DNA of 64,000 nt from Thermococcus paralvinellae (GTDB lineage: Archaea > Methanobacteriota_B > Thermococci > Thermococcales > Thermococcaceae). Positions 8,600-28,319 of this stretch are shown here, piece by piece. The position numbers were made by a program, and so were the translations under genes. The DNA lies in NCBI RefSeq assembly GCF_000517445.1, contig NZ_CP006965.1, positions 1,836,681-1,900,680 on the forward strand, written 5' to 3'. Position 1 is the stretch's first letter. Each line of letters begins with the position of its first letter. The notes below the pieces were generated by a model. The model did not search any database. It was not told the DNA's origin and worked only from the letters and a program-made list of their open reading frames with translations.

Positions 8600-9480
8600 T
8601 ACTCAACCCTCCTCTCCTGTATCATTCTCTTTAGCATGCCTATTGAGAACACAAACACTGCCACTGTGAGGAATGTAGCAACAGCTGCTGCGAATCCCCA
8701 TCTGTATCTAAAGAACGCTTCGTAGTACACCAAATAAGCGAGCACTGATAAATAGAGCGGAGGAGATTCTGCTGACAACACAAATATAAGGTCAAAGACC
8801 TTTAGGATGTAGATTGAACTCATCGTGACGACGACTATTAAAGCTGGTTTCAAGAGAGGTAGGAGGACATATCTAAACTTCTGCCAAGGATTTGCTCCAT
8901 CAATTATTGCAGCTTCAAGAATTTCTTTGTCAATCCCCTCAAGCCCAGCGAGAAATACTGTAGTTGAAAAACCCAACCAAGCCCAAAGAGAACCTAACAG
9001 AACAAAATATATTGCAGTTGAGGGGTCTTGTATCCAAGCCCTAGGAGAACCTCCTAGGAGCTCAATAATTTTATTAATAATTCCAGAACGAGGATCGAGC
9101 AAAAGCATCCAAACTATACCAACAACTGTTAGTGGCATAACCATACCGAGCATAACAATTCCTCTCAAGACATTTCTCCCTACAACTTCCTTATTGTGGA
9201 GAAGGATCGAGAATGCTAAGCCTAAGAGCGTGACTAAAGGCAAGAATGTGATGAACAGAAACACGTTATTCTTAATTGATGTTCTGAAAAGTTCATAATC
9301 AAACATTTTTTCATAATTTTGAAGTCCAACAAACTGAGGTGGAGTAAAACCGTCCCACTTAAAGAAGCTCAAGTAAAATGTGTTTAATATTGGATACACG
9401 ATAAAAATAAAGAGGAGTATAAAGGCGGGCGTCATCAGGATGAAAAAGTCTTTAGTTAAGTAATCCTTCCTTCCGCCCAT
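8599..9480 (-). CDS. ABC sugar transporter permease, MalF/CUT1 type
   Basis: A 293-residue permease of the shorter MalF/UgpA type: an N-terminal membrane segment FILMTPAFILLFIFIVYPIL, five further segments, and the EAA loop LEAAIIDGANPWQKFRYVLLP. GAGGTGGG precedes the ATG. It lies 10 nt after the binding-protein gene and overlaps the partner permease by 1 nt. A nucleotide-binding subunit is needed for function and is absent from this cluster. Confidence 0.88.
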   Translation of the reverse strand: MGGRKDYLTKDFFILMTPAFILLFIFIVYPILNTFYLSFFKWDGFTPPQFVGLQNYEKMFDYELFRTSIKNNVFLFITFLPLVTLLGLAFSILLHNKEVVGRNVLRGIVMLGMVMPLTVVGIVWMLLLDPRSGIINKIIELLGGSPRAWIQDPSTAIYFVLLGSLWAWLGFSTTVFLAGLEGIDKEILEAAIIDGANPWQKFRYVLLPLLKPALIVVVTMSSIYILKVFDLIFVLSAESPPLYLSVLAYLVYYEAFFRYRWGFAAAVATFLTVAVFVFSIGMLKRMIQERRVE

Positions 9481-9490
9481 TTATCCCACC

Positions 9491-10810
9491 TCAGCTTGAG
9501 TAATAGTCTTTTGCTTGCTTCTCAAGGTCTTCGGCAATCTTCTGGTAGTCATCTGGGTTGGCCCATAATCTGAAGAGTGCGTCCCAGATTACAGGCTGGA
9601 ATCCACTTGGTACATTGTCATCCAAGTCTGGCACTACAACTGAATTCTTCATAATCTCAACAACTCTGTAATCTGCTGGGTCGTATGCCTCTTTTGGAAC
9701 TGCTAAGTTTGGTGCAAGATAACCTTTTTGTCTTACCATAATCTCTTGATATTGTGCTCCAGCAAACCATTCTGCAACTTTTAAGGCTACCTCTTTGTGT
9801 GGAGCATTCTTTGGAACTATAATCCAGTCGCCACCAGCAACTATTGCAGGCTTAACATTTGGATTGATCGTTGGGAATGGAATTAAGTCATAGTCAACAC
9901 CTGGCTTATATCCTTCACTCTGGAGCATTAAGTTAATCCAGTTGCCCATGAAGTACATGGCAACTTCTCCCTTTCCTAATCTTGCTACTTGAGCTTCCCA
10001 CTTCTCACCAATTGCAACCTTGGGATCACCATAGCAACCTTGCTTGAGGAGGTCGCTTATGATCTTAAATGCCTCAATAACTTGCGGGTCTGTCCACTTT
10101 ATTTCGTGTCTCATAAGCTTCTGGTGGAGCTCTGGGCCACCGACTCTAAGAAGGACAGCCTCAAAGATATCACTCAGTGGCCACTTATCAGCGGCACCGC
10201 TTGCCATTGGCTGAATTCCTTTGCTCTTCAACACGTTACAAACTTGTTTGAGGTCATCTAAGGTCTTTGGCGGTTCAAGATTGTTGTCTTTAAAGACATG
10301 GACGTTATACCAAATACCTGGCTTTGCCCATGCTTTAATTGGGATTCCATAATAAACACCATTCAGATTAACAGGATCAAGTAGATTTTGCATAATTTGT
10401 CCAGAATATTTCTTTGCTATTGGGGTTAAATCTTCAAGTTGGCCTTTTTGACCAAGTTCCTTTATCAGTGCGGGCCATGGGAGGATTGCAATATCGAAGT
10501 TTGGTGAACCAGCCGCTAATTCACTTAAAACGGCATCTCTAAGTTTTGATTGTTGAACATATTTAATCTGTATGTCTTTGTGGGCTTTATTGAACTCTTC
10601 AATGGCCTTCATAAAGGCCTCTCCTTCGCTACCACCCCACTGGCCATAGACTATTACCTCAACAGGCTTAGCTTCTGTGGGTTTTTCTGTTGTTGTAGGG
10701 GCTGCTGTAGGACTCGTAGTTGTCTCCTTTTGAGAGATACATCCAGCAACTATGGCACCTAACAAAAACAGGCTTAAAAGCAATGCAGCTTTTTTAACAC
10801 CACGCTTCAT
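9491..10810 (-). CDS. ABC transporter sugar-binding lipoprotein (family 1 SBP)
   Basis: A 439-residue extracytoplasmic solute-binding protein. The signal peptide ends in the lipobox AIVAGC (Cys24), followed by the Thr/Pro-rich linker usual in Thermococcales binding proteins (residues 29-48), then the SBP domain beginning VEVIVYGQWGGSEGEAF. Later landmarks include GEVAMYFMGNWINLMLQ and AGGDWIIVPKNAPHKEVALKVAEWF. It differs clearly from the T. litoralis trehalose/maltose-binding protein as I recall it, although the adjacent TreT and TrmB genes are the usual companions of that system. First gene of the minus-strand arm, preceded by a TATA box and a TrmB-type site. Substrate unknown; oligosaccharide expected. 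Confidence 0.85.
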   Translation of the reverse strand: MKRGVKKAALLLSLFLLGAIVAGCISQKETTTSPTAAPTTTEKPTEAKPVEVIVYGQWGGSEGEAFMKAIEEFNKAHKDIQIKYVQQSKLRDAVLSELAAGSPNFDIAILPWPALIKELGQKGQLEDLTPIAKKYSGQIMQNLLDPVNLNGVYYGIPIKAWAKPGIWYNVHVFKDNNLEPPKTLDDLKQVCNVLKSKGIQPMASGAADKWPLSDIFEAVLLRVGGPELHQKLMRHEIKWTDPQVIEAFKIISDLLKQGCYGDPKVAIGEKWEAQVARLGKGEVAMYFMGNWINLMLQSEGYKPGVDYDLIPFPTINPNVKPAIVAGGDWIIVPKNAPHKEVALKVAEWFAGAQYQEIMVRQKGYLAPNLAVPKEAYDPADYRVVEIMKNSVVVPDLDDNVPSGFQPVIWDALFRLWANPDDYQKIAEDLEKQAKDYYSS

Positions 10811-21783: not shown

Positions 21784-22451
21784 TGCTTTCTCCTCTTTTT
21801 GAGGCGTATTTGGATTTGAAGTATTTGCTCAATAGAGGATATAAGAAAAACGTTGCATTGAATTTTGTAGCTAATCACTACAAGCTGAAAAAGGAGGATA
21901 GGTATCTCTTAACTAGATGTGTGTTTAGTGATAAAGAAATAAAAGCCAGAGAAAAGAAGAGAAAGCCAATTGATTTTATACGAAATAAAGTCCTAGCTGT
22001 TGATGGGTTTAATGTTCTAATAACTTTGGAATCGGTTCTTGAAGGAAAAGCTATACTTTGCGAGGATGGTCTTGTTAGAGATTTAAAGTATCAAAGGGGA
22101 TATAGGCTTAGTGAAAAAACTAAAGAGATGTTATTTTTCCTCTTGGAGTTTTTATCTAAGTTTAACCCAAAAGAAGTCATCCTTCTCTATGATAAGCCTA
22201 TCAGCAAAAGTGGAGAAATTGCAAAGCTCACAAATGAAATTATGAAAAAAGTTGGTCTTTCTGGAACAGCAGAAGCCACAACTTCTGTGGATTTTGAACT
22301 TAAGAAATTTCAAATTGTTGCAACTTCGGATTTGGCTGTTGTTGATAAGGTAAAATATGTTGTGGATATACCACAGGAATTCTCAAAGAGTAAGGGAATT
22401 AAAATAAAAGAGCTCGAAGAAATTTTAAGAGCGGGAATAGAGATTTATTAA
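21783..22451 (+). CDS. DUF434-family protein (COG2454)
   Basis: A 222-residue protein that fits the archaeal/bacterial DUF434 family. The N-terminal helical part includes RGYKKNVALNFVANHYKL; the second part has AVDGFNVLITLESVL (near 74-88) and LLYDKPISKSGEIA, reminiscent of the NYN/PIN-like ribonuclease fold with acidic residues in DGFN and YD. Nuclease activity is not established. Translationally coupled to the HD protein. Stop overlaps the convergent DUF5305-like gene by 4 nt. Confidence 0.75.
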   Translation: MLSPLFEAYLDLKYLLNRGYKKNVALNFVANHYKLKKEDRYLLTRCVFSDKEIKAREKKRKPIDFIRNKVLAVDGFNVLITLESVLEGKAILCEDGLVRDLKYQRGYRLSEKTKEMLFFLLEFLSKFNPKEVILLYDKPISKSGEIAKLTNEIMKKVGLSGTAEATTSVDFELKKFQIVATSDLAVVDKVKYVVDIPQEFSKSKGIKIKELEEILRAGIEIY

Positions 22452-23467
22452 CTCTCTTCTAAATCTCTCCTGTATTCATAGACGATTCCATCATCTACAA
22501 TTGCATAGACGTCATTATCCCCTTCTTGATAATGCATTATTGGCTTATCAATCAAGTCAAATGTCTTTCTCAGGTCTTCTTCTGTAGCAAGTGTGATTTT
22601 CTTATCTACTTTATTTGGAATTCCTTTAATTATGTATCTCTTTAGGTCTTCGAGTCCATCTTTTGCACCATTTGCTTTTGCTGTGTACACCATTCCAAAG
22701 ATTGGGAGAGCACTTAAAAGTGCTAAAATTGGGAATGCTTTCTTCGCTGTGCTGACACTAGTTGGTTTTCCGAGAACACTCAAGAAGTTTGTCTTAACTT
22801 CCCTGTCAACTAAGTTTTTCTTAGTTTTGACTTCCTCATTTGTGAAATATATGAGCCCGTTTCCTGAATCTATGACCATGTTAATGGTTTGCTCAAATTT
22901 TTCATTAACCTCCTTTCCGTTAACTTTTCCTTTGGCTGAAACTTGGACTATAATTTTTATGTCTCTTGAAAGTCTTTTAATGCCAAGACCCTCCGTAACT
23001 TCTGTTGTTCTCTTATTTATCTCATTTAGATCAAAGCTTATTGCCTCTACTATCATTCCATTTTCAAGATCTCCGCTTCTTTCTACGAGCTTTTCTTCCC
23101 AAAATATTATCTTTTCTTTGCCTTTTGATGTGTAATATGTTGTCACTATGGTGAGCTTGTATTTTCCAGTTATTTCCTCTCCAGGAGTGAGAGTGTAAAC
23201 GTAAACTCCTGCTATTGACTCAGTTATGTCTTTTGGATAGTACTCCATGCTCTTTACGTTCCCATAAAGGGATACATTAGAAAAGAATGCTTTGTGCTGA
23301 AAAACACCTTTCTGCATATAGCTTCCCACATTCTTAGTGGTTCTTGTTACAGACTCTTTTTGAAAAGCTAGTACACTATAAGTTGAGAATAACAAAAAGA
23401 ATATGAGTAGCATTCCAAATGTTATCTTGCGTTTCTTCGTCTTTATTTTTTTCAAATTAGTTTTCAT
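22448..23467 (-). CDS. DUF5305-like membrane-anchored protein of the fibre-like operon
   Basis: A 339-residue protein with an N-terminal membrane segment (ITFGMLLIFFLLFSTYSVLA), an extracytoplasmic beta-rich region and a second membrane segment near residue 247 (FPILALLSALPIFGMVY), followed by a cytoplasmic tail of about 85 residues. It looks like the archaeal DUF5305 family, which I recall next to signal peptidase genes. GGAGGT precedes the start; ATG at 23467 chosen, with a TTG option 3 nt upstream. It is the last gene of the block, 51 nt after the Cys-tailed exported protein, and may help to anchor or assemble the exported subunits (inference). Confidence 0.68.
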   Translation of the reverse strand: MKTNLKKIKTKKRKITFGMLLIFFLLFSTYSVLAFQKESVTRTTKNVGSYMQKGVFQHKAFFSNVSLYGNVKSMEYYPKDITESIAGVYVYTLTPGEEITGKYKLTIVTTYYTSKGKEKIIFWEEKLVERSGDLENGMIVEAISFDLNEINKRTTEVTEGLGIKRLSRDIKIIVQVSAKGKVNGKEVNEKFEQTINMVIDSGNGLIYFTNEEVKTKKNLVDREVKTNFLSVLGKPTSVSTAKKAFPILALLSALPIFGMVYTAKANGAKDGLEDLKRYIIKGIPNKVDKKITLATEEDLRKTFDLIDKPIMHYQEGDNDVYAIVDDGIVYEYRRDLEES

Positions 23468-23518
23468 CAACTTTAATACCTCCAATTTTGTTATCTATAA
23501 TAATGAAAAATGTCAGCT

Positions 23519-24436
23519 CTATGGGCAGGGACAGCAGTGATCACAGTTGTCTATAGCTTCAACCTCTATCGAATCTGTTTCTATCTCATAACCCACAATC
23601 CAAGCACCATCATTGAGTGCATACGTTCCTTCACTTGTGAACTCTTGGTGTCCCGCAGGGTTAACTCTTGTATAAATTGTTATGTCCATATGTTCGCTTT
23701 CACCTTTTCCAACAGTTACTACCCATTCCATATGGGTGGAGCCCATATTCCCTCCTCCTTGTTTCACAAAGGTATAGCCTCCGTCTGTTGCTGAAGTTTG
23801 GCTTAGGTCAACTTCAAATTCTGCTGGAATGACGTCTTTAATTGTAAATTCTTCCTCTGGGCCGTAGTTGGTTATTTCTATCCTTATGGTCCAGCTTTGG
23901 TTTGTTTTTATTGGCACAGTTGTGTTTCCACTTATGAGAATTTTTGTTAGCTCTACTTGAGGCTCAATTACATTAATTTTCAGTGGACAGACACTTATCT
24001 CGGCATCTCCTCTATCCCACTCCGCATAAAGCATGATTGGAACTTCGTAGCTCCCTACTGGGGCATCACCGGCTGCACTTACATTTCCTTCAAAGGAGTA
24101 TTCCTCTAGGTCAAACAGAATAACCCATCCACTTTCAAGGTCTACATTTACTCCAGAAGGTAAGCTTGAGTAGTCTCCTTCAATTCGTGCTTCTAACGTT
24201 TCTCCAAGCTGGTTTTTTATTGTTAGAGCATTAAATGTCAGAGACCTTCCCTGCTCTACTGTAACAACTGCAGAATAACCACTCTGAGTACACTGGTAAC
24301 TTATGTATGATTTATTGCCTTGGACTATATCAACCCAAACTTTTCTTTCACTTTCATATTCTCTGAAATTCCCGCTAGAGCCAATGAGTATCATAGAACT
24401 CGCTAGCAAGATTAAAAACACTGCACTCCATTTCAT
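23519..24436 (-). CDS. exported protein with NFxxYxxxR mature start and Cys-rich tail
   Basis: A 305-residue exported protein. Signal peptide about residues 1-22 (ending LIGSSG), then the mature start NFREYESERKV, which matches the starts of two DUF1102-like proteins upstream. The middle holds two Ig-like/DUF11-type beta domains: one around residues 66-160, and one from VELTKILISGN to IEVEA (WTIRIEITNYGPEEEFTIKDVIPAEF). The C-terminus ends in an unusual cysteine cluster, CDHCCPCP, after a single earlier pair (CTQ, CPL). The ATG overlaps the signal peptidase stop by 4 nt (ATGA). Likely a surface-fibre-associated or adaptor subunit. Confidence 0.75.
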   Translation of the reverse strand: MKWSAVFLILLASSMILIGSSGNFREYESERKVWVDIVQGNKSYISYQCTQSGYSAVVTVEQGRSLTFNALTIKNQLGETLEARIEGDYSSLPSGVNVDLESGWVILFDLEEYSFEGNVSAAGDAPVGSYEVPIMLYAEWDRGDAEISVCPLKINVIEPQVELTKILISGNTTVPIKTNQSWTIRIEITNYGPEEEFTIKDVIPAEFEVDLSQTSATDGGYTFVKQGGGNMGSTHMEWVVTVGKGESEHMDITIYTRVNPAGHQEFTSEGTYALNDGAWIVGYEIETDSIEVEAIDNCDHCCPCP

Positions 24437-25497
24437 AATCCAACACTCTCCCTGAGTTTATTAAAAATCCTTGAGCGATGAAGTCTATATCTGACTATGT
24501 CTTCGTTTCCAGTTCCTACTGCAAAGTAGAGGAGAGCCAAGAAGAATGATGCTTCTGCGAGATATGCAACAAATGGTAGATAAGGACTTACACGATAAAG
24601 TTTTGTTAGAGTTCCTTCAGGTAAAATTGGCAGATATGCATAGATGTTAATTTTCTCTCCATAGACTCTTGTATCTTCCGGAACACTTACCCGAACTTTT
24701 ATCTTTTCTTTATTGTTTCCAGGTATCTTAAACGATTTTTCACCTAAAATTTCAACCCTATCCCCTTGGGCCTCAACGAAGTATAAGAATGGGTAAATGG
24801 CATTATTTTCTAATGTCAGCTCTTTTTCAAAAGTTGAGCCTGGCAAATACCATCCTTCTCTCTGACCACTGGCGAGGGTTGAGGAATAGCTGAAAGTTAA
24901 AGTTCCCCATGAGAGCATCATCGAGAGGATTAAAACTGCCACTATTAGGGAGGCAGTTACTGCATAAAGTGTTTTAAATTTCACTCTTATGTACTTCCTT
25001 TTACCCTTCTTTTTTCTCTCCTTTCCACTGGTTGTCAAGAGGATTGCTCCAAGAACTAAAAACACTATTGCAATATACAGGTTTGAGCTTTTTTTAGAGA
25101 GATCTTTTATATAATCTCCTGCTCTTGGTATCTTTAAAGGTTCTCCCCCAATTGTCACAACCTCGCCTATCACTGCATCTTGTGCTATCTTTGGGTTTTT
25201 GTCTTCTTGCTGATCCGTTGCAACATTATTGTCACCTTTTGTTATGTATCCCTCGTAATCTTTTGCATAGACCCTATGAACTGTCCATTCATTATTCATT
25301 TTAAAAACAATAATATCATTGACATCGCCTTTTGAGAATGGATTTATGAAAAACAAATCTCCTTTCTCCAATGTAGGCGTCATGCTATCCGAGTAAGCAT
25401 AGGATATAAGGATTGGTCTATCAAGAACAAATCCAGCTATTGATGTGATCAGGAATAGACCAACAACAAATGTAAAAAGAAGCTCTAGAAATTTCAT
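24433..25497 (-). CDS. signal peptidase I (Sec11/SipW type) with extra extracytoplasmic domain
   Basis: A 354-residue membrane peptidase. Catalytic motifs are of the Ser-His-Asp (Sec11/SipW) kind: YSDSMTPTL (Ser38), VHRVY (His74) and TKGDNN (Asp89). After the catalytic domain and a membrane segment (residues about 127-143), a very basic linker KERKKKGKRKYIRVK precedes another membrane segment, a beta-rich extracytoplasmic domain of about 120 residues and a last membrane segment. Most archaeal signal peptidases stop after the first part, so this enzyme has a dedicated extension. ATG at 25497 has AAGGTG upstream and overlaps the upstream stop by 4 nt. Surrounded by exported small proteins, its likely substrates. 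Confidence 0.88.
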   Translation of the reverse strand: MKFLELLFTFVVGLFLITSIAGFVLDRPILISYAYSDSMTPTLEKGDLFFINPFSKGDVNDIIVFKMNNEWTVHRVYAKDYEGYITKGDNNVATDQQEDKNPKIAQDAVIGEVVTIGGEPLKIPRAGDYIKDLSKKSSNLYIAIVFLVLGAILLTTSGKERKKKGKRKYIRVKFKTLYAVTASLIVAVLILSMMLSWGTLTFSYSSTLASGQREGWYLPGSTFEKELTLENNAIYPFLYFVEAQGDRVEILGEKSFKIPGNNKEKIKVRVSVPEDTRVYGEKINIYAYLPILPEGTLTKLYRVSPYLPFVAYLAEASFFLALLYFAVGTGNEDIVRYRLHRSRIFNKLRESVGL

Positions 25498-25991
25498 CCG
25501 CACGCACCTTCATAAGCTTGTATTTTAAAGCTTCCAGAAACTTCACCAAGGGTATAATTTGTGGTGTTAATATAGATACCAACATTCACTGACTCATATT
25601 CACCCAGTGTAAAGCTAATACTATCCTCGGGTGTCATGTTTGAGTAGTAAAATCTTAAGCCATCCATTTGTGAAGTAATAATTACGCAAATAACTGATGT
25701 TCCTGTTTGGGTTACATTGTTCTCTACTCTCATAACGTCATCAAACTTGTAAATTGCATCTCTCGACAACCCCTCTCCGTATCCGGGGTAAAATGGATTA
25801 TCCTCACTAATATCAATTGTCAAATTTCCTCCATGATAGAGAAAAGCATACGGTGGGAGTGGTGTCTCAATAGTAAATGCACCATTACCATCTTCAAGAG
25901 CATAAGAAATAGGTACTGGTTTGTTAATGCTAATTGAGAAGAACAATACGAAAATTACTGCTACAGATAATATTATCTCCTTATTGATCAC
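25494..25991 (-). CDS. DUF1102/TasA-like exported or anchored small protein (third paralogue)
   Basis: A 165-residue protein with an N-terminal hydrophobic segment (EIILSVAVIFVLFFSISI), then a beta-rich domain homologous in pattern to the two upstream paralogues: PPYAFLYHGGNLTIDISEDNP, FYPGYGEGLSRDAIYKFDDVM and V-N-V. It lacks the NFxxYxxxR start, so it may stay anchored or be cleaved after ISYA. It has two cysteines, CVII near the middle and the C-terminal GACG, as in its paralogues. I chose GTG at 25991 with GAGGCGA at 5 nt spacing; the longer reading to 26033 has no ribosome binding site. Candidate minor or terminal fibre subunit. Confidence 0.72.
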   Translation of the reverse strand: MINKEIILSVAVIFVLFFSISINKPVPISYALEDGNGAFTIETPLPPYAFLYHGGNLTIDISEDNPFYPGYGEGLSRDAIYKFDDVMRVENNVTQTGTSVICVIITSQMDGLRFYYSNMTPEDSISFTLGEYESVNVGIYINTTNYTLGEVSGSFKIQAYEGACG

Positions 25992-26059
25992 TTTTATCGC
26001 CTCACAAATAAAAACTAAAATATCTGAGAGCAAATGCTCTCAATAAACTAGATTCATCA

Positions 26060-26596
26060 TCACGGGCATGCGCCTGCAATTGCATGTATCTGAAGTTGTG
26101 TTTGATAGGTTCCTAGTGCCATGTTTGTGTTGTCGAATATAAACCCAATTGGGACTGGGCTTCCATGGTATACTGTAAATGTTATTGAAGCAGCTGGACC
26201 TGCACTTGGGCTACTATAGTCGCCTGCGAATACTTCAACATCGTACGAACCTGAAACGCTGAGGGTTACACAAATTGGGTAGTCAGTTTGATTGTTTTCC
26301 CAAAGATCGTTGCTAACATTAAACATTTCTTCAAAAACATAGGTTGTGTTCGGGCTGAGTCCAAGTCCACCCCAAGCTGGCCTGTTTGGGTTATATTCGC
26401 TGATATCAATGTACAATTTTCCATTGCTTAAGCGTGCATATGGTTGTACTGGTGTCAAATCAATTAGCTCATTGTCATCTGCAACAATAGCAACTGTGAT
26501 GTCTCTGTCTGCTTCATAATACCTAAAGTTGGCTCCAGCGCCAACCGCCAACATCATCCCTACTAAAAGTAGGGCCAAACCAATAAGTTTATTCAT
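26060..26596 (-). CDS. DUF1102/TasA-like exported protein (second paralogue)
   Basis: A 178-residue exported protein. Signal peptide to GAGA (residue 22), mature start NFRYYEADRDITVAIVADDN, then ELIDLTPVQPYARL and a beta-sandwich-like region: NPNRPAWGGLGLSPNTTYVF, EEMFNVSNDLWENN. A central Cys (YPICVTLS) and a C-terminal Cys (GACP) could form a disulfide. GGAGGT precedes the ATG. The gene is 17 nt after the first paralogue. The fold and context recall TasA/camelysin proteins and the archaeal bundling pilin AbpA, which polymerise by donating an N-terminal strand; that analogy is inference. Confidence 0.8.
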   Translation of the reverse strand: MNKLIGLALLLVGMMLAVGAGANFRYYEADRDITVAIVADDNELIDLTPVQPYARLSNGKLYIDISEYNPNRPAWGGLGLSPNTTYVFEEMFNVSNDLWENNQTDYPICVTLSVSGSYDVEVFAGDYSSPSAGPAASITFTVYHGSPVPIGFIFDNTNMALGTYQTQLQIHAIAGACP

Positions 26597-26613
26597 TTTT
26601 TATACCTCCTTAC

Positions 26614-27204
26614 TCACTGTCCGCACTTGCCAACCAAAGCAGCTGGCTCTGTCCCAAGTCTGTAGGCTTTTATTCCCATAGCAACGTTCCATATGTCTCC
26701 TGGACTATCGCCATCTGCACTCAAGTCAAGACCAATCTTAACTGTATCTCCTGGTGTAACTACGAAACAAACATCCTCATCTGCTGTATCTGATGAACTA
26801 GCTATGGCTCCAGTTGCTACTTCATATACATCTCCCTCATGTCCGTAGAACTCTACGTTAGTGCTGTTTGAGGTTATCCTAACAACTATAGTCATGTTCT
26901 CCCAAAGGTCGTTGCTAACTTCAAAGACTTCATCAAAATTGTATTCACTTGATGGGCTTATTCCGTTTCCATATCCTGGATAGTTTGGGTTATTGACTGA
27001 GAAGTCAATTACTAGAACACCGGTTACGTCGTCTATGTATGCATAGGGTTGTATTGGTGTTAAATCAATTAGCTCATTGTCGTCCGGAACAATATGCCAG
27101 TGGACGCTTCTGCTTGCATTGTAATCACTAAAATTGGCTCCTGCACCAAGCACGAGACCAAAGGCCACTAAAAGGCCGAAAATTCCAAGTGCTAACTTTT
27201 TCAC
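26614..27204 (-). CDS. DUF1102/TasA-like exported protein (first paralogue)
   Basis: A 196-residue exported protein, the first structural gene of the block. Signal peptide to GAGA (residue 23), mature start NFSDYNASRSVHWHIVPDDN, then ELIDLTPIQPYAYI, almost identical to the next paralogue, then NPNYPGYGNGISPSSEYNF and EVFEVSNDLWEN. It carries a longer C-terminal part with a Cys in EDVCFVV and another in GKCGQ. I chose GTG at 27204 because AAGGAGATG gives proper spacing; an ATG at 27213 is inside that site. A TATA-like CCTATATAC lies near 27270-27278 on this strand, giving a leader of roughly 50 nt and its own promoter. Likely the major subunit of a surface filament (inference). Confidence 0.8.
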   Translation of the reverse strand: MKKLALGIFGLLVAFGLVLGAGANFSDYNASRSVHWHIVPDDNELIDLTPIQPYAYIDDVTGVLVIDFSVNNPNYPGYGNGISPSSEYNFDEVFEVSNDLWENMTIVVRITSNSTNVEFYGHEGDVYEVATGAIASSSDTADEDVCFVVTPGDTVKIGLDLSADGDSPGDIWNVAMGIKAYRLGTEPAALVGKCGQ

Positions 27205-27267
27205 TTTTTTCATCTCCTTATTTTTCGGAGCCCCCTTGAATAGGGACTTCAAAGGAAATCTTTGCAA

Positions 27268-27317
27268 CTGATGTATATAGGTAATTAGAAAATTCGAAAG
27301 GGTAATCGGTAATTACC
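27268..27317 (-). promoter_or_regulatory. promoter of the fibre-like operon with three GGTAAT repeats
   Basis: Plus-strand GGTAAT occurs at 27280-27285, 27301-27306 and 27308-27313; the last forms a perfect 10-bp palindrome GGTAATTACC (27308-27317) that overlaps the stop codon of the upstream regulator gene. The cluster sits directly upstream of the minus-strand TATA (near 27270-27278). This is a good candidate operator for one of the two adjacent winged-helix proteins. Confidence 0.5.
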
Positions 27318-27759
27318 TCTCTCCTTTTATGATTTTTCTTTCTTTCATCCTTTGAACTATGGATAAAGCCAAAAAGGCGCTTGAAATCACAAAACCCTCC
27401 CAGCTTTGTGCTATGTAACTCAATATCACTGAGCTAAGAGCAAGTATGGTATAAACAGTGGCCCATCTCACATCATTTTTATTTACAATCTCCATGTAGA
27501 CATCAACGTTTTCAGGAATTCGGATGAGTTTAATGGTTCCATGCTTAAATTCTATTATTCCCTCCCTTTCCATCTTTGGAATGTGAGTTTGTATCAGGCT
27601 TACATAAACGCTTTTTCTGTGTTTCCTGTCAGTATTCCCTTCTTTTTCTGCAATGTATCTAACTAAATCTCTGAGATCAGCTTCTCCATTTGATTTCTGT
27701 AAGAACTCTATGACACACATTCTCCTATCGTTCCCCAAGATCATGGCTGAGGTAGTCAT
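27313..27759 (-). CDS. winged-helix regulator with C-terminal membrane hairpin
   Basis: A 148-residue protein: an N-terminal winged helix of the archaeal DUF7344-like type (RRMCVIEFLQKSNGEADLRDLVRYIA, then RKSVYVSLIQTHIPKMEREGIIEF) followed by two membrane segments (about residues 98-115 and 118-134) and a basic tail. A membrane-tethered transcription factor could sense the state of the cell surface. It overlaps the upstream small winged-helix gene by 4 nt (ATGA) and lies directly before the exported-protein genes, whose promoter overlaps its stop codon. Probably the local regulator. Confidence 0.75.
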   Translation of the reverse strand: MTTSAMILGNDRRMCVIEFLQKSNGEADLRDLVRYIAEKEGNTDRKHRKSVYVSLIQTHIPKMEREGIIEFKHGTIKLIRIPENVDVYMEIVNKNDVRWATVYTILALSSVILSYIAQSWEGFVISSAFLALSIVQRMKERKIIKGER

Positions 27760-27974
27760 TTATCTCGCCTCAAACGGTAATGTCGCCGATGATTGGTGTT
27801 GATATAGTACACCTCTATTATGTTTTCTTTGATAAGGCTTCTAAGTACGCTTTCAACTTTTTGTCTCGTACACTCAATCCCTCTCTCGTTAAGCTTCCTA
27901 GTAAGAATAGCAACAGTTGAATAACCTTCTCTACGTAGAATATCAATGATATTCTCTCTAAGTTTCTGCTTCAT
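27756..27974 (-). CDS. small winged-helix DNA-binding protein
   Basis: A 72-residue winged-helix protein: KLRENIIDILRREGYSTVAIL, then a recognition helix CTRQKVESVLRSLIKENIIE and a basic wing INTNHRRHYRLRRDK. The size leaves no room for a sensor domain. ATG at 27974 follows AAGGTGAG; the GTG at 27983 is part of that site. It heads the operon, with a TATA-like TTTATAG about 30-40 nt upstream on this strand. It is translationally coupled to the membrane-linked regulator, so both probably act on the fibre-like operon. Confidence 0.75.
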   Translation of the reverse strand: MKQKLRENIIDILRREGYSTVAILTRKLNERGIECTRQKVESVLRSLIKENIIEVYYINTNHRRHYRLRRDK

Positions 27975-28243
27975 ACTACTCACCTTACGGTATTGTCGTA
28001 TGCTTATACTATAAATACTTTCCTAAAAAGTCTGATTTTTAGAAAATTGTAAATTTTAGAGCATATAACTCTCAAAAAAAGAAAATTTGCTTTTTATTAT
28101 TATTTAATCTTTCGCTTTTGAAATGGAGTAATTTGAAAAGTTTTTTAATTTTTGGAAAATTTACAATTAGTTTCATGAAAACAACAACTTGATTACTTGA
28201 AATCCAGCAATAAGAAAATTTTAAATCTGGAGCCCGGGGGTTT

Positions 28244-28319
28244 GGTAGCCCCGCGGGGATTCGAACCCCGGTCGCGGGATCCAGAGTCCCGCATGCTTGG
28301 CCGCTACACCACGGGGCTA
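28244..28319 (-). tRNA. tRNA-Gln (CTG), CCA encoded
   Basis: Minus strand: acceptor arms AGCCCCG/CGGGGCT, anticodon arm CGGGA-CTCTGGA-TCCCG with anticodon CTG, T arm CGGGG-TTCGAAT-CCCCG, discriminator A and an encoded CCA. A TATA-like AAATTTAAAAACC lies upstream on this strand. It is intron-free. Confidence 0.94.

Follow-up and report, generated by a model that had tools for sequence, protein, structure and literature searches.

Eight genes packed on one strand of the Thermococcus paralvinellae genome raise the question of whether this archaeon builds an extracellular fibre and, if so, to which of the known fibre systems it is related. The genes lie in a stretch of 64,000 nucleotides (contig NZ_CP006965.1, positions 1,836,681 to 1,900,680; hereafter the window) and include three DUF1102 proteins (D1, D2 and D3), a Sec11/SipW-type signal peptidase (PEP) and an exported protein with a Cys-rich tail (CYS). 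The original prediction, made from the DNA letters, had read them as a locally controlled fibre module with its own peptidase, similar to the bacterial tapA-sipW-tasA operon and the archaeal AbpA system. The present analysis supports the fibre module: the operon probably encodes an extracellular donor-strand pilus system, a variant of the AbpA/Taf type that can be described as a Sec-exported cousin of Taf. The evidence pointing to fibre formation includes the match of the D1 fold to AbpA, the profile match of the DUF1102 proteins to haloarchaeal TafA/TafE-like pilins, and an N-terminal segment common to D1, D2 and CYS.

The fold work covers D1 of the trio, which was modelled without its signal peptide from an alignment of 68 sequences. 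The model, with a predicted local distance difference test score (pLDDT) of 85.7, has a beta fold of nine strands, in which the mature N-terminus is poorly defined (block means of 57 and 44 for residues 1–20). The best match in the Protein Data Bank (PDB) is AbpA, the bundling pilin of Pyrobaculum (PDB entry 7UEG; E 5.7e-6, probability 1.00), which is also the sole PDB match with E < 0.001; AbpA forms an archaeal donor-strand fibre (PMC9715654, PMC9674648). The second match is the Natrinema Tafi pilin (PDB entry 9P0A; probability 0.99), followed by an archaeal tube protein, and weaker matches further down comprise the donor-strand pilins SafA, CfaB, FimG and Saci_0406. Folds unrelated to TasA and AbpA, which the original prediction had named as the outcome that would speak against it, were thus not obtained for D1. 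In addition, the profile of D1–D3 aligns over nearly its full length with a profile of haloarchaeal TafA/TafE-like pilins (HHalign 96.7%, E 4e-10; control 0.1%). The pilins in the latter profile were selected by their RR motif, so that twin-arginine signals are a putative hallmark of Taf and not an established one. The Taf proteins themselves are taken here to be fibre-formers, as indicated by the PDB title of 9P0A and the NCBIfam family names.

The signal peptides of D1 and D2 are short, Lys-type and of the Sec pathway. After a short Sec-type signal, D1, D2 and CYS all start with [A/G]-x-F-x-x-[YF]-x-[AS]-x-R, the mature N-termini being NFSDYNASRSVHW in D1 (at 27135), NFRYYEADRDITV in D2 and GNFREYESERKVWV, of the same type, in CYS. 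D1 and D2 are 53% identical over the first 22 residues and 43% elsewhere, and D2 and CYS are 43% identical in the N-terminal part and 27% elsewhere, with shuffled CYS N-termini giving 28%. Residues 1–22 of mature D1 are also more conserved than the rest of the protein (0.79 versus 0.69), despite the low model confidence in this region. A Phe residue occupies mature position 2 (P2′) in 33 of 33 D1, 33 of 33 D2 and 28 of 29 CYS sequences, the single exception having a misplaced start; since this Phe is itself part of the search pattern for the segment, the count describes the location of the segment at the end of the signal and not a free choice of residue. TasA has the same Phe at P2′ of its SipW-cleaved site, a residue that general signal peptidases handle badly (PMC10269814), and this residue (F29) lies in the donor strand (PMC9674648).

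Gene content and accessory subunits

The genome searched consists of one contig of 1.96 Mb, which was covered by family and pattern searches. The eight-gene operon on one strand could be confirmed: all eight open reading frames (minus strand, window 22448–27974) are open at the place stated, and they are backed by family matches and by an order conserved in 34 loci, WH1-WH2-D1-D2-(D3)-PEP-CYS-DUF5305. The features are as follows.

27756–27974, minus strand: WH1, opening gene of the operon, encoding a small winged-helix protein (open reading frame; same position in relatives)
27313–27759, minus strand: WH2, winged-helix regulator of the DUF7344 family, hydrophobic in its C-terminal region (69.1 bits against the Pfam model, cut-off 27.8)
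27301–27317, minus strand: dyad, predicted operator of the pilin promoter, overlapping the WH2 stop codon
27274–27280, minus strand: CTATATA, predicted TATA box of the D1 promoter (consensus match; position conserved in relatives)
27205–27256, minus strand: predicted 5′ untranslated leader of D1, with a hairpin at 27248–27229
26614–27204, minus strand: D1, pilin-like DUF1102 protein with a Sec-type signal peptide (DUF1102, 182.5 bits)
26060–26596, minus strand: D2, second pilin-like DUF1102 protein (DUF1102, 181.7 bits)
25494–25991, minus strand: D3, DUF1102 domain without a donor-type N-terminus, preceded by a hydrophobic segment (DUF1102, 118.1 bits)
24433–25497, minus strand: PEP, Sec11/SipW-type signal peptidase with an added, predicted extracytoplasmic Ig-like (PapD-like) domain and further membrane helices (TIGR02228, 57.4 bits)
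23519–24436, minus strand: CYS, exported protein with a DUF11-like domain in its C-terminal part, followed by a tail rich in Cys (DUF11, weak, 16.7 bits)
22448–23485, minus strand: DUF5305 membrane protein with a pair of hydrophobic segments and its C-terminal part in the cytoplasm (Pfam DUF5305, 50.2 bits, cut-off 29)

D1, D2 and D3 all score above the Pfam gathering cut-off of 22.2 for DUF1102 (PF06510); no further copy of the trio is found elsewhere in the genome, and the DUF5305 gene is the sole copy as well. WH1 is borderline against MCM4_WHD in Pfam (24.3 bits, cut-off 24.4) and starts at ATG 27974, with an alternative GTG at 27983. The most likely start of D1 is GTG 27204, which is preceded by a Shine-Dalgarno sequence GGAG (27217–27214) and is used by relatives too; that of D3 is most likely GTG 25991. 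ATGA overlaps at three gene pairs (WH1/WH2, D3/PEP and PEP/CYS) suggest that translation is coupled across them.

The DUF1102 proteins had been proposed to be three paralogous subunits. All three belong to the family, but they are not equivalent, since the conserved mature N-terminal segment is absent from D3, which matches the DUF1102 profile only from profile position 12. Instead, the N-terminus of D3, a hydrophobic segment followed by RPxPVSYA, matches the N-terminus of PEP (93% probability, E 3e-7, 26 columns; 1.3% for the D1 signal peptides), a short match for which convergence is possible. Because the first segment of type I signal peptidases is an uncleaved anchor, D3 may be anchored in the membrane as well, and with a possible anchor and no donor segment it is probably a membrane-held base subunit. 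For CYS, the Cys tail by which the protein had originally been characterized is present here but is not conserved, and some relatives are without it. Its DUF11 match, weak here, is above the cut-off in relatives, and CYS is predicted to be the counterpart of TafC, acting as a tip or adhesin.

The signal peptidase and its added domain

PEP exceeds the cut-off of the archaeal signal peptidase I family (TIGR02228; 57.4 bits versus 51.85), its catalytic region matches SEC11A (3.5e-10), and residues Ser40, His76, Asp91 and Asp97 are invariant among 31 sequences (numbering from GTG 25503). The type I signal peptidases of the genome are two, PEP and a housekeeping enzyme of 164 residues. This, together with the P2′ Phe that D1, D2 and CYS share with TasA, agrees with the earlier proposal that the operon has a dedicated peptidase. 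In one relative (locus L053, 5272–6335, genome G028) two frames, of 147 and 228 codons, take the place of a single PEP gene, owing to either a sequencing error or a real frameshift.

Residues ∼199–290 of PEP are modelled as an Ig-like domain (block means mostly 88–91), which according to the positive-inside rule would be located on the same side of the membrane as the catalytic domain. The Foldseek neighbours of this domain are PapD-like and MSP domains and the pilus chaperones DraB, Caf1M and YadV (probability ∼1, E 0.006–0.02), and its profile also reaches HYDIN, which is built of PapD-like repeats (0.033); a match of the profile to a designed protein (4ow4), spanning 38 residues, was set aside. 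The added domain, whose putative PapD-like Ig fold is newly described here, is retained in Thermococcales, Archaeoglobales and Halobacteria: a PEP profile from the first two orders matches the haloarchaeal peptidases with ∼116 bits in the catalytic part and ∼29 bits (E 1e-7) in the added domain.

There is an even chance that the domain added to PEP acts as a spacer or as an element of membrane topology, with the pilus assembling without a chaperone, an alternative which concerns the domain and not the pilus, and whose likelihood is not to be added to those of the other readings. The PapD-like and MSP-like folds are Ig folds of a generic kind, and the Foldseek E-values are weak; moreover, TasA monomers are stable and self-complemented (PMC9674648), and a TasA-like subunit could do without a chaperone. 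A mere spacer is, however, at odds with the retention of the domain across three archaeal groups and with the presence of the true pilus chaperones DraB, Caf1M and YadV, among other PapD-like domains, in the matches of the model. A tentative and rather doubtful possibility is that PEP is a two-in-one enzyme, which cuts the pilin and, by means of the fused PapD-like domain near its active site, keeps hold of the still open Ig fold up to the arrival of the donor strand. To our knowledge, no other signal peptidase has been described that doubles as a pilus chaperone; such an enzyme would be retained from Thermococcales to Halobacteria and would form part of a module with a single-copy operator of its own and a structured leader RNA for the pilin.

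Control of the pilin promoter

The proposed local control is supported by the dyad GGTAATTACCGATTACC (27317–27301), which is the sole perfect match of GGTAAYNNNNNRTTACC (GGTAAY-N5-RTTACC) in the genome and begins 37 bp upstream of the CTATATA box. This genome-unique dyad ahead of the pilin TATA box is newly described here; its role as a switch, and any assignment of its binder, are putative. The dyad is found with 0–2 mismatches in 51 of the 52 Thermococcales leaders that have a TATA call, several of which come from closely related genomes, so that the 51 dyads are not independent; the same regions read backwards mostly give 4–6 mismatches. The spacing between dyad and TATA box is nearly always 35–38 or 47–48 bp, values that are about one helical turn apart. 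In archaeal promoters a site upstream of the TATA box fits an activator, and the position of the dyad suggests such a role. Only one Archaeoglobales locus has a perfect dyad, L094, which is also one of the two where WH2 is matched strongly; this hints that the dyad is bound by WH2.

In most relatives a putative hairpin lies just after the predicted transcription start, differing in sequence but located at the same place. The first 42 nucleotides of the leaders have a median folding z of −1.84, with 24 of 52 below −2, as compared to medians between −0.2 and 0.24 for five control regions; the D1 leader of the window has one of the weaker values (−1.3). The 6-bp stem is 99.2% paired, with 33 double-changed cells and 20 distinct stems, and none of 500 shuffles scored as high; the underlying alignment was registered by hand with the loops replaced and leans towards structure, which is not the case for the z-scores. 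This putative covarying hairpin in the pilin leader is newly described here. In the D1 leader of the window, CTCC (27230–27227) can pair with the Shine-Dalgarno sequence GGAG. Sequestration of the Shine-Dalgarno sequence was rejected as a universal feature of the leaders: pronounced in a Thermococcus group with long leaders and in some others, it is absent from Pyrococcus-like genomes. An Rfam scan yielded no family for the leader, the only hit above threshold being a tRNA at 28246–28318.

Conservation, alternatives and known systems

DUF1102 proteins occur in 33 of 36 other Thermococcaceae genomes searched, one of which holds a fragment only. The order of the operon on one strand is kept in 34 Thermococcaceae loci including the window, and therefore cannot be due to chance; the flanking genes often differ. 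Among these loci, D1 and D2 are present in 33 and D3 in 18, and D1–D3 are lost in one. In the Pyrococcus-like genomes D3 is absent, WH1 is not recognised, and the CYS gene is short, much diverged or unrecognised. The core of the operon is also found in Archaeoglobales (Geoglobus and Archaeoglobus assemblies), and haloarchaea have more distant relatives; the viral contigs searched contain no relative. The locus without D1–D3 (L042, 6316–8186, genome G011) is a natural deletion that also removed the dyad, such that WH2 is directly followed by PEP, the two being separated by what is left of a DUF1102 C-terminus, and PEP, CYS and DUF5305 are still open. Another locus (L085, 1677–6900) contains an insert of ∼5 kb between WH2 and the D1 leader, with a row of paralogous proteins of ∼210 residues. 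In a Halorubrum stretch (L112, 1814–5899) the extended peptidase adjoins a DUF5305 gene, with a DUF7344 gene nearby, and no DUF1102 match was found within the stretch; the peptidase-DUF5305 pair may therefore serve other substrates too.

Many Archaeoglobales loci (L072–L082 and L087) encode a D1 that is 68–77% identical to that of the window, whereas some Thermococcus D1 proteins reach only 45–50%, below many of those from Archaeoglobales, which suggests transfer of D1 between the two orders. Furthermore, in L053 and L079 the nearest relatives of D1 and D2, apart from each other, are from another genus (68–79%), whereas D3, PEP and the regulators are nearest to those of their own genus (85–93%), and L039 and L061 are 93–99% identical in the regulators and DUF5305 but 63–75% in the genes between them (D1–CYS). 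Judged from their sequences, these operons look like mosaics in which surface-fibre genes were replaced by recombination, D1–D2 in the first pair and D1–CYS in the second. Such swapping of pilin genes among lineages points to diversifying selection on the fibre at the cell surface.

If the pilus reading is correct, assembly would proceed as follows. D1 and D2 would be exported by Sec and cut by the signal peptidase of the operon just ahead of the Phe-containing N-terminal segment, which, unfolded in the monomer, would supply what the Ig-like fold of the following subunit lacks and so lead to polymerisation. D3, with an acceptor domain, a membrane helix and no donor segment, would form the base, and CYS, with a donor segment and a different head, would be the tip or initiator, as TapA and TafC. 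The Ig-like domain of PEP, close to the active site, may retain newly made subunits or guide them, and DUF5305 may serve in assembly or anchoring. Production would be switched at the dyad by a winged-helix regulator, most likely WH2, with the hairpin leader adding control at the mRNA level.

Several observations weigh against this reading. The TM-scores of D1 versus AbpA are modest (0.44 and 0.42), and neither D1 nor the D1–D3 profile matches a solved pilin among the PDB sequences. The NCBIfam equivalog cut-offs for TafA, TafC and TafE are not reached, the best score being that of D2 against TafA (19.5 bits, cut-off 190), and Taf membership at that level was rejected; for TafC no match exists anywhere in the genome. 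A D3 base cannot be universal, as D3 is missing from the Pyrococcus-like and some Thermococcus genomes, and the PapD-like assignment of the PEP domain depends on weak Foldseek E-values of 0.002–0.02. Finally, a filament of this kind in Thermococcales was not found in the literature searched. That literature contained no relevant papers on DUF1102, DUF5305, TafA/TafE or Tafi. The DUF1102 proteins could instead make up a surface layer, sheath or adhesive coat that is not fibrous, built of secreted, peptidase-cut Ig-like proteins that do not polymerise by donor strands. Archaeal envelopes commonly contain secreted Ig-like proteins, no fibre has so far been observed for the operon, and the D1 fold search also gave many unrelated Ig-like matches. 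Nevertheless, the PDB matches with probability ≥ 0.99 and E < 0.004 are three archaeal filament or tube structures only, and a plain coat explains neither the flexible yet conserved N-terminus common to three different proteins nor the co-occurrence with named Taf fimbrial proteins; the coat is accordingly regarded as unlikely. A strict archaeal tapA-sipW-tasA operon with members of the TasA/CalY (M73) family is highly improbable and largely refuted: it would share the logic of a dedicated Sec11/SipW-type peptidase with fibre subunits and the Phe at P2′, and PEP is matched weakly by the SipW family (29 bits, cut-off 190), but D1–D3 have no Peptidase_M73 (PF12389) match in Pfam, which a different gene of the same genome does have, and both sequence and fold point to AbpA/Taf.

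That separate TasA/CalY protein is encoded at 9430–9987 of the genome contig (locus L001, 1462–2061); it is the only M73 match of the genome (45 bits) and has a Phe at the second position of its predicted mature form. Of 25 Thermococcaceae searched, 20 have an M73 match, and the present genome contains no second SipW-like gene to serve the M73 protein.

Most Thermococcales appear to carry a pilus system of which no description was found. The donor-strand pilus reading, if true, would join AbpA, the haloarchaeal Taf fibres and DUF1102 in one family, give DUF5305 and DUF7344 a likely role, and make donor-strand fibre assembly in archaea without a known chaperone or usher testable. Thermococcales are genetically tractable hyperthermophiles.

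Of the two systems to which the locus had originally been likened, AbpA is upheld, together with Taf, by fold and profile, whereas TasA is not the nearest relative. Like tapA-sipW-tasA of Bacillus subtilis, the operon combines a dedicated Ser-His signal peptidase with subunits that carry a Phe at P2′ and with an accessory protein that has a subunit-type N-terminus (TapA there, CYS here). It differs in gene order, in having DUF1102 instead of M73/camelysin subunits and in the Ig-like domain added to the peptidase. PEP corresponds to other Sec11/SipW-type peptidases in its catalytic region and its invariant Ser, His and Asp residues, but adds membrane helices and an extracytoplasmic Ig-like domain undescribed in Pfam. 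AbpA of Pyrobaculum calidifontis is the best structural match of D1; D1–D3 are without detectable sequence similarity to the solved chains, and the comparison covers the pilin fold.

The closest correspondence in gene content is with Taf. A haloarchaeal Taf locus (L117), in which TafA, TafC, TafE and TafF all score above their cut-offs, also encodes a DUF7344 protein, a DUF5305 protein (151 bits) and a peptidase homologous to PEP along its whole length, and a model of WH2 built here detects homologues in haloarchaeal Taf loci with 55–90 bits. TafC of L117 carries a laminin-G-like lectin domain, consistent with a tip adhesin. The haloarchaeal Taf fimbriae, of which 9P0A from Natrinema sp. J7-2 is the solved structure, resemble the present operon in their homologous pilins with A-F-x-x-x-x-A-x-R at the mature N-terminus and in their neighbours, i.e., DUF7344, DUF5305, a TafC whose N-terminus is of the type seen here, and a signal peptidase extended in the same manner. 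In contrast to the twin-arginine signals of the Taf pilins compared, those in T. paralvinellae are of the Sec type, CYS has DUF11-like domains in place of the laminin-G-like domain, and the genes form a single operon entirely on one strand, which additionally contains the small WH1 gene and the conserved dyad.

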